This document shows, in pieces, positions 2,766-4,189 of a stretch of DNA of 45,437 nucleotides (its first letter is position 1; each line of letters begins with the position of its first letter). The translations under genes were made by a program, and so were the position numbers. The notes beneath the pieces are model-generated. The model ran no database searches and was not told the origin of the DNA. It worked only from the letters and a program-made list of their open reading frames with translations. The DNA comes from Spirochaetales bacterium (GTDB lineage Bacteria; Spirochaetota; Spirochaetia; Sphaerochaetales; Sphaerochaetaceae). The stretch is from the NCBI GenBank assembly GCA_028722305.1, contig JAQYHB010000026.1:1-45437 (forward strand), written 5' to 3'.

Positions 2766-2880
2766 GAAGGGGAGTAGTCCTGAAAAGGATGGAGTCAACA
2801 GCCGGCAGTAGCCTGGTTCCATCCAACCGCATGTGGCGGGTGCACAAGACCTTCTGGATATCAAGTCCAGGGGGTCTTGT
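2766..2880 (+). ncRNA. yybP-ykoY-type manganese riboswitch
   Basis: The conserved landmarks appear in order: GGGGAGTAG (2769-2777), a TCCT-GAAA-AGGA hairpin (2778-2789), GTCAACA (2794-2800) and GCACAAGACCTTC (2842-2854). A five-base P1 helix GAAGG/CCTTC (2766-2770 with 2850-2854) closes the element, as in the known family. Between them lie hairpins CCGG..CCTGG and CCGC/GCGG. The expression platform overlaps the 3' end: ACAAGACC (2844-2851) can instead pair with GGTCTTGT (2873-2880) to make a terminator. Mn2+ binding would protect the aptamer and let transcription continue, an ON switch, as known for this class. Assignment is by recalled consensus, not a covariance-model search. Confidence 0.8.
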
Positions 2881-2890
2881 TTGTGTTTTC
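2844..2890 (+). terminator. Riboswitch-controlled terminator (also the only visible tRNA-Val terminator)
   Basis: ACAAGACC (2844-2851) pairs perfectly with GGTCTTGT (2873-2880), with an inner CTGGA/TCCAG stem (2854-2858, 2866-2870) and loop TATCAAG. A T-rich tract TTGTGTTTT follows (2881-2889). The 5' arm is the conserved aptamer segment, so aptamer and terminator exclude each other. Confidence 0.75.
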
Positions 2891-2908: not shown

Positions 2909-4189
2909 ATGGACAAGATGCAAGTCGGAGTGCTTGCGATGGTGCTGGCAATGTATGCCGTCGTCATCCTCAAAAGCGAATGGAAGGTGTGGGCAAGCGT
3001 CGTCTGCGCTGCGCTCATGGTCGCCACCGGGGTCGTCGGCATCCATGAGGCGTTCTTTTCCATGATCAACTGGAACGTATTGATGATCTACGTGGGGTCG
3101 ATGGTCATCGCCGAGATGTTCCTGTACAGCAAGGCGCCGGCCGTGCTTGCCGACCGGATCATCTCCACCAGCAAGAATGTCGGGCATGCCATCGTCGCGA
3201 TTCTGGTCATGACCGGCATCATCAGCGCCTTCGTCGAGAACGTAGCCACCGTCCTGGTCATGGCTCCCATCTGCCTCGCGCTGAGCAAGAAGCTGAAGAT
3301 GGACCCGACCTACTTCATGGTCGGCCTTGCCGTCATGGCCAACCTCGAGGGGACCGCCACGCTGGTAGGCGACCCTCCGAGCATGATTTTCGCCAACTAC
3401 ACCGGCTACGGGTTCAATGACTTCCTGTTCCACGAGGGCAGGATTTCCATCTGTTGGTTCATACAGGTCGGCCTCTTGGCAGGCGCCTTGTATTTCCTCT
3501 TCCATTTCCGCAATGCCGAGCAGCCGCCGAAGGTGGAGGGAGAGAAGATGGTCAGTTGGGTGCCGACCATCCTGCTTCTGGGCATGATCTTCGGCCTGGC
3601 CCTCTGCTCCTTTCTGCAGAGCGGTGTCGGATTCCTCAGCGGTTCTTTCGTGCTTGCCTTGGGCGTTGTCGCCGCCCTCTGGTACCTGCTGGGACAGAAA
3701 AAGGGGAAGGGAGAGACCATTTCCATGCTTCGCGGCCTGGATTGGGAGACCATTTTCTTCCTTGCCGGCATCTTCGTGGTCGTCGGGGGGATCGAGAACT
3801 CCGGGCTTCTGGAGCTGCTTGCCGGACACATGGAGTCCCTGATCGGCGGCAACGTCCTGGTCGGGTTCATCCTGATCCTGCTGGTTTCCGTCCTGATCAG
3901 CGGCTTTGTCGACAACGTCCCCTACATCATGGTGATGCTGCCGGTCGCCGACCAGCTTGGCAGGGGGCTCGGCCTGGCACCCGAACTGTACATGTTCGCC
4001 CTGTTGATTGGCTCCTGCCTGGGCGGCAACCTGACCTGCTACGGCGCTTCGGCCAATGTGGTCGCCGTCGGCATCCTGAAGAAGCACGGCGTTCCCTGCA
4101 ACTTCGGCAACTGGCTGAAAATCGGGGTTCCGTTCACCTTGCTCACCACTGCCGCGTCGGCTGTTTCCCTCTGGCTCGTCTGGGCCTGA
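2909..4189 (+). CDS. ArsB/NhaD (SLC13-like) ion transporter under manganese-riboswitch control
   Basis: A 426-residue polytopic membrane protein with roughly 11-12 hydrophobic segments. Two pseudo-symmetric halves each carry an ion-transporter signature: SAFVENVATVLVMAPI followed by GTATLVGDPPSM in the first half, and SGFVDNVPYIMVMLP followed by GSCLGGNLTCYGASANVV in the second. These place it in the ArsB/NhaD permease group of the ion transporter superfamily, whose members move arsenite, Na+/H+ or organic anions. AAAGGAG (2896-2902) sits six bases before the ATG. The manganese-type riboswitch directly upstream suggests a role in Mn2+ export or in relieving Mn2+ stress; that substrate is inference, since the usual partners of this riboswitch are MntP, TerC, UPF0016 and P-type ATPases. 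Confidence 0.85.
   Translation: MDKMQVGVLAMVLAMYAVVILKSEWKVWASVVCAALMVATGVVGIHEAFFSMINWNVLMIYVGSMVIAEMFLYSKAPAVLADRIISTSKNVGHAIVAILVMTGIISAFVENVATVLVMAPICLALSKKLKMDPTYFMVGLAVMANLEGTATLVGDPPSMIFANYTGYGFNDFLFHEGRISICWFIQVGLLAGALYFLFHFRNAEQPPKVEGEKMVSWVPTILLLGMIFGLALCSFLQSGVGFLSGSFVLALGVVAALWYLLGQKKGKGETISMLRGLDWETIFFLAGIFVVVGGIENSGLLELLAGHMESLIGGNVLVGFILILLVSVLISGFVDNVPYIMVMLPVADQLGRGLGLAPELYMFALLIGSCLGGNLTCYGASANVVAVGILKKHGVPCNFGNWLKIGVPFTLLTTAASAVSLWLVWA

Follow-up and report, generated by a model that had tools for sequence, protein, structure and literature searches.

The window, a stretch of 45,437 nucleotides from a Spirochaetales bacterium of the family Sphaerochaetaceae, carries on its forward strand a compact unit formed, from the proximal to the distal end, by a tRNA gene, an aptamer-like element, a terminator and a transporter gene. 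The tRNA-Val (2690-2761, anticodon TAC, without encoded CCA) is identified by ARAGORN and by the Rfam tRNA model (64.9 bits). It is preceded by a predicted sigma-70 promoter, TTGACT-18-TAGATT (2651-2680), the sole promoter-like site in 2560-2960, where shuffled sequences lead one to expect 0.1; its spacing is retained in a relative with 96% identity (L002). The aptamer-like element starts at 2766, only 4 nt past the end of the tRNA, which leaves no space for a second promoter. The tRNA-Val promoter would then be the only promoter of the whole unit. Downstream of the terminator (2844-2889), a Shine-Dalgarno sequence AAGGAG (2897-2902) lies 6 nt before the ATG of a 426-residue transporter gene (2909-4189). 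A further valine tRNA of this genome has the anticodon CAC, and no second copy of tRNA-Val TAC was seen in the DNA search.

Aptamer fold and competing terminator

Positions 2766-2854 adopt a fold of the yybP-ykoY (Mn2+) aptamer type. The 5' strand of P1.1, GAAGG (2766-2770), pairs with CCUUC (2850-2854), a pairing kept or compensated in the 40 copies described below, and the aptamer is closed by P1.2 (2777-2778 with 2844-2845). The 5' side of loop L1, GGGGAGUAG (2769-2777), faces CAAGACC (2845-2851) and includes the position of the extruded adenosine; its core GGGAGUAG is invariant in 40/40 copies, while the first G of L1 is an A in four copies, each with a matching U. A2773 of this loop corresponds to the extruded A10 of the X. 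oryzae structure (PMC6754395). A small P2 of 3 bp (CCU-GAAA-AGG, 2779-2788), absent from most spirochaete copies, is followed by P3.1, whose 5' strand (2787-2797, alignment columns 38-47) is the partner of 2814-2824 (UGG...); in these columns 94.6% of cells are paired, and double changes occur in eight of the nine pairs. P3.2 is a hairpin, GGC-AGUA-GCC (2804-2813), supported by the alignments, and P4 a second one (2827-2839) with double changes in all 5 modelled pairs. The predicted Mn2+-discriminating adenosine of L3 is A2800, an A in 39/39 alignable copies; its equivalents, A48 in X. oryzae and A41 in L. lactis, contact Mn2+ through N7 (PMC6754395). When mapped on these structures, A2800 sits below the P3.1 pair C2796-G2815, the receiver of the A-minor contact of A2773, and A2773, this pair and A2800 are all invariant or nearly so across the 40 copies.

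The last strand of the aptamer, CAAGACCUUC (2845-2854), forms the 3' side of L1 and P1.1, and is at the same time part of the 5' arm of an intrinsic terminator, which would be the OFF state. This double role of CAAGACC at 2845-2851 had been claimed in an earlier note on this DNA, and it holds. The terminator stem had been described there as a perfect 8-bp helix; it is in fact 16 bp long (2844-2859/2865-2880, G-U pairs counted), with a loop of 5, and its U-tract (2881-2889) is imperfect, UUGUGUUUU, two G interrupting it. As the same note had stated, the tRNA has no other visible terminator, and no further terminator-like site is present in 2560-2960.

The region folds with an energy of -53.0 kcal/mol (z = -3.85), better than all 200 shuffles. 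P1.1 belongs to the minimum-energy fold when the terminator 3' arm is left out, and the terminator wins when this arm is included; the fold with P1.1 forced reaches -38.6 kcal/mol, against -53.0 kcal/mol for the terminator fold. In a growing transcript, the computed equilibrium probability of P1.1, which takes in neither tertiary contacts nor metal, is ~0.92 for ends between 2854 and 2870, 0.52 at 2872 and 0 at 2874, the position at which the terminator closes. The two folds are thus mutually exclusive, as earlier proposed, P1.1 forming first and being lost once the terminator closes; and since P1.1 is formed by 2854 and gone by 2874, the switching decision falls within ~20 nt of transcription. 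An expression platform competing for P1.1 is found in the window and in its relatives, and a switch helix common to aptamer and terminator is the published mechanism of the L. lactis riboswitch (PMC11087558).

Conservation and relation to known Mn2+ riboswitches

With the window transporter as query, 80 orthologous loci were gathered, nine of which (L031, L033, L044, L054, L072, L083, L084, L105 and L106) display upstream the succession GGGGAGUAG, a CAACA-like L3, C(A/C)AGACC and a terminator. These nine loci, together with the window and L003 from its genus, make up an 11-sequence alignment in which the 4 aptamer helices were assigned by hand. In this MAFFT alignment, unfitted to the structure, 88.2% of the pair cells are canonical and 14 pairs are changed on both sides, and none of 500 shuffles equals any main measure. 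A covariance model built from it, R1, finds one copy in the window's own genome and the element in 29 more genomes of a phylum sample of 392; in the window's family, 5 genomes harbour it, among them the two congeneric G082 and G083 and two with MntP downstream. The window copy, with 81.1 bits, is among the best of the phylum. With 40 copies aligned, the share of canonical pair cells is 92.3% and 21 of the 24 pairs show double changes, values as high being reached by 0/500 shuffles, in an alignment that is fitted to the model and hence biased towards its structure. P1, P3 and P4 are backed by this covariation.

The central claim concerns the shared strand. Eight to nine of its 9 positions pair in the terminator in all 36 loci whose two parts could be parsed. 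AGACU replaces AGACC in 7 loci. Opposite this U, P1.1 has a G (G-U) in three of them and an A in the other four; on the terminator side, five have an A and two a G-U wobble. Two loci, L145 and L146, have U148 of this strand changed to A, answered by a U in both the P1.1 partner and the terminator partner. Substitutions matched in both partners indicate that selection preserves both pairings of one strand, and such dual upkeep is what mutually exclusive folds predict. Compensatory changes in related genomes, a check proposed in the earlier note, are present in both alignments and in the shared strand. The readthrough-when-bound logic that it had put forward is supported by the exclusive folds, by this covariation and by the L. 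lactis precedent.

The same stretch might be read as a plain tRNA terminator preceded by a non-switching relic, with the transporter expressed by constant readthrough. The terminator alone is indeed by far the stabler fold (-53.0 kcal/mol, the aptamer with P1.1 forced reaching -38.6 kcal/mol), and a plain terminator occupies this position in sister genera. Every conserved aptamer position is, however, intact in 3 species of the genus with ~81-96% DNA identity, and the score of the window copy (81.1 bits) is among the highest in the phylum; the relic reading is very improbable.

The earlier note had looked to Rfam RF00080 for the family assignment. A match exists in a 341-nt search, but it is weak (16.9 bits, E = 0.009) and stays under the curated cut-off of 45; nothing exceeds this cut-off in the window, in the whole genome or in 11 relative loci. 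The validated E. coli mntP leader itself scores 44.9 bits against RF00080 (Rfam 15), 0.1 below the cut-off, and the validated alx leader is unreported even at E up to 10 (E. coli loci L141:5465-5573 and L142:5375-5501). Since the cut-off fails both validated leaders, a sub-threshold score of the window is no bar to membership, and the low score is best read as a weakness of the Rfam model, not as evidence of difference. Conversely, R1, built from spirochaetes only, detects the mntP leader with 43.5 bits (E = 8.7e-9) and the alx leader with 17.7 bits (E = 0.03), so that homology with an experimentally validated Mn2+ riboswitch, E. coli mntP, is detectable. This homology to the mntP and alx leaders, the conserved L1 and the discriminator A uphold the aptamer family first proposed. 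Because RF00080 leaves a whole subtype undetected, and does not even pick up a validated E. coli riboswitch, Mn2+ regulons are under-annotated.

With the yybP-ykoY riboswitches of L. lactis yoaB, X. oryzae yebN and E. coli mntP/alx, the window shares the L1 strands GGGGAGUAG and CAAGACC and a P3.1 capped by UCA/UGG. It also shares the discriminator A of L3, P4 and, as in L. lactis, a P1.1 overlapping the terminator (PMC6754395, PMC11087558). Whereas the published structures are four-way junctions, P2 of the window has just 3 bp and most spirochaete copies lack it: P2 is missing in ~32 of the 40 copies, where the P1.2-P3.1 linker measures 6-9 nt, and these copies should therefore be three-way junctions. 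In the literature searched, the main surveys of the family not included, no description of a P2-less form came up. In L. lactis yoaB, the ligand-stabilised P1.1 likewise blocks an overlapping intrinsic terminator (PMC11087558), but it controls a P-type ATPase gene that has a promoter to itself, in place of an ArsB-like transporter served by a tRNA promoter. To note, the Na+-I (DUF1646) riboswitch, considered in view of the antiporter-like target, gives no Rfam match and its published motif description is unlike the window.

The transporter, its counterparts and the ligand

The transporter exhibits the ArsB/CitMHS/DASS (ion transporter) fold and is a candidate Mn2+ exporter. Its Pfam matches are CitMHS with 216 bits and ArsB with 63 against a cut-off of 22 bits, the ArsB match being at the superfamily level. 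The NCBIfam ArsB models give 70-82 bits where their cut-offs are 415-760, and the protein falls far under every cut-off of the NCBIfam ArsB, MamN and DASS models. In the structure model (pLDDT 85.8), the closest solved fold is that of ArsB 10tp of L. ferriphilum (TM 0.80), followed by VcINDY-type carriers (TM 0.71). The predicted fold is thus that of the ArsB arsenite pump and of DASS carriers, from which the sequence differs strongly (20% identity or less). No ars gene is present in the neighbourhood read around the transporter. Two motifs, ENVATVL and DNVP, are conserved, one in each half of the protein.

The genes located behind the element in relatives have been read at 30 loci of the phylum scan (L111-L140). 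Orthologues of the window transporter follow it in 16 (the window's own locus included), an OAD_beta-type protein in 6 (L112, L113, L115, L116, L119 and L123), P-type ATPases in 4 (L137-L140), MntP in 2 (L135 and L136), and a partly masked GDT1/UPF0016 protein in 1 (L131); one gene is lost to a contig end. In the family of the window, MntP also stands behind the element in L145 and L146. Table 1 of PMC9936198 counts MntP, UPF0016 and P-type ATPases among the established families of Mn2+ exporters, the status of the relatives' genes as known exporters being assigned by family membership. It is the presence of these genes behind the element that argues most strongly for Mn2+ as the ligand, and Mn2+ is presumably the ligand in the window's species as well.

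The architecture could nonetheless serve another ligand, either a different divalent ion or mainly pH. With P2 lacking in most copies and L3 of variable length past the discriminator, the pocket could have drifted, and some of the targets, namely CitMHS/ArsB-like and OAD_beta proteins, do not appear in the published list of Mn exporters (PMC9936198). As L1, the C-G pair receiving the A-minor contact and the discriminator A are all kept, and as MntP, GDT1 and P-type ATPases lie behind other copies of the element, such a change of ligand is improbable.

The published Mn exporter families are CDF, MntP, UPF0016, TerC, P-type ATPase and CaCA (PMC9936198), and the window transporter, CitMHS/ArsB by Pfam and by fold, lies outside all of them. 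Both the ON logic and the known exporters behind the same element suggest that it most likely removes or exports Mn2+. That it might instead be an importer, or an anion or arsenite carrier under a genuine switch, is suggested by its closest solved folds, ArsB and Na+-coupled dicarboxylate carriers. Pfam CitMHS, moreover, takes in metal-citrate carriers. Against this, a switch that is ON at high metal fits removal, and in related genomes the element precedes families of proven exporters. The ENV/DNVP motifs resemble those of cation/H+ antiporters of the ArsB-like superfamily. On balance the importer or anion-carrier function is rather unlikely, and Mn2+ export is preferred. An independent hint could come from B. 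burgdorferi, in which peroxide resistance rose after insertions into two genes of the "ArsB/NhaD superfamily" (PMC5333916), a phenotype that would fit the loss of a Mn2+ exporter; no Borrelia genome was recognisable among the matches to the window transporter for orthology with BB0637/BB0638. In the literature searched, which does not cover the main surveys of the family and so makes an earlier mention possible, no Mn2+ riboswitch was found linked to ArsB/CitMHS/NhaD or OadB.

The OAD_beta proteins belong to six loci of Treponema type. The assignment is by Pfam for one (oxaloacetate decarboxylase beta-subunit, 489 bits), three more being read as the same protein, and L115 and L116 being included for their near-identical leaders and gene starts. 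In the single neighbourhood read, that of an OadB-like gene on the reverse strand (L181:6167-7372), genes of the alpha and gamma subunits do not adjoin. Next to the ArsB-like protein, an OadB-like pump working on its own is thus a second candidate Mn2+ transporter of a new kind.

Most orthologues of the window transporter in the phylum are devoid of the element. The window genome possesses an MntP gene (G000:C33:66242-66694, L186) without aptamer, no second element having been found before this mntP, whereas MntP of G048 and G061, from the same family, does carry it; the switch therefore seems to move between exporter genes. In another genome (G393:C14:150625-153179), tandem transporters, 61% and 56% identical to that of the window, stand behind one aptamer.

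The composite tRNA unit and the proposed switch

The order tRNA-Val, aptamer, transporter is retained in 3 species of the genus (G000, G082 and G083). In sister genera, tRNA-Val is directly followed by a short hairpin and a T-run, and the aptamer is absent. These plain units (L004, L007, L009, L011, L017 and L021) share with the window the tRNA-Val, the type of upstream promoter and an immediate terminator, but this terminator is a simple hairpin, replaced in the window's genus by aptamer, terminator and transporter gene. The element thus occupies the former place of the tRNA terminator.

The adjoining tRNA-Val might call to mind a T-box or another tRNA-sensing leader. Such an identity is exceedingly improbable: Rfam gives no T-box match with E values of up to 10 allowed, the gene controlled encodes a transporter and is not a valine gene, and most relatives with the element have no tRNA beside it. 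The other Rfam RNA families do not match either.

The locus is very probably a Mn2+ riboswitch that acts by terminating transcription, a spirochaetal form of the yybP-ykoY family lodged within the 3' trailer of tRNA-Val(UAC) and gating an ArsB-like transporter. RNA polymerase would start at the tRNA promoter and transcribe the tRNA, then the aptamer. At low Mn2+, the terminator hairpin would capture the closing strand of the aptamer (2845-2854), and transcription would end at ~2885, yielding the tRNA precursor alone. Mn2+ bound between L1 and L3, at the discriminator A2800, would hold P1.1, block the terminator and allow readthrough into the transporter gene, whose product, once made, most likely clears Mn2+ from the cell. 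This reading is directly supported by the parts identified, by the two exclusive folds, which are conserved and covary, by the homology with a validated E. coli Mn2+ riboswitch and by the target genes of relatives. A spirochaetal Mn2+ riboswitch placed in a tRNA trailer is of unusual build but of ordinary kind: a switch already known, pointing to a testable new family of ArsB-fold Mn2+ exporters in spirochaetes. In such an arrangement, an essential, strongly transcribed tRNA unit lends its promoter and its terminator decision to a metal-stress gene.

A second case comes from a distant family, in which one genome was available (G191, L183). There, tRNA-Gln(CTG) is located 41 nt upstream of an aptamer (L183:6128-6334) followed by an orthologue of the window transporter, apparently an independent tRNA-riboswitch unit. 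The 41-nt spacer is AT-rich and offers room for a weak terminator or promoter, which makes the tRNA-Gln case suggestive, not proven. The other 28 element loci scanned have no tRNA near the element, and no paper on bacterial tRNA-riboswitch units was found with the terms tried. Whether metal-gated tRNA units arose in two unrelated spirochaete lineages (tRNA-Val, and tRNA-Gln in G191), mostly with a P2-less three-way subtype, borrowing the tRNA promoter and, at least for Val, acting as the tRNA terminator, and controlling a new family of ArsB-fold Mn2+ exporters, is at present an evenly balanced proposition.

Directly upstream of the tRNA in the window, positions 732-2581 harbour an HTH-like ORF and a HipA-like kinase (PF07804, 169 bits), a pair that looks like a HipBA-type toxin-antitoxin.
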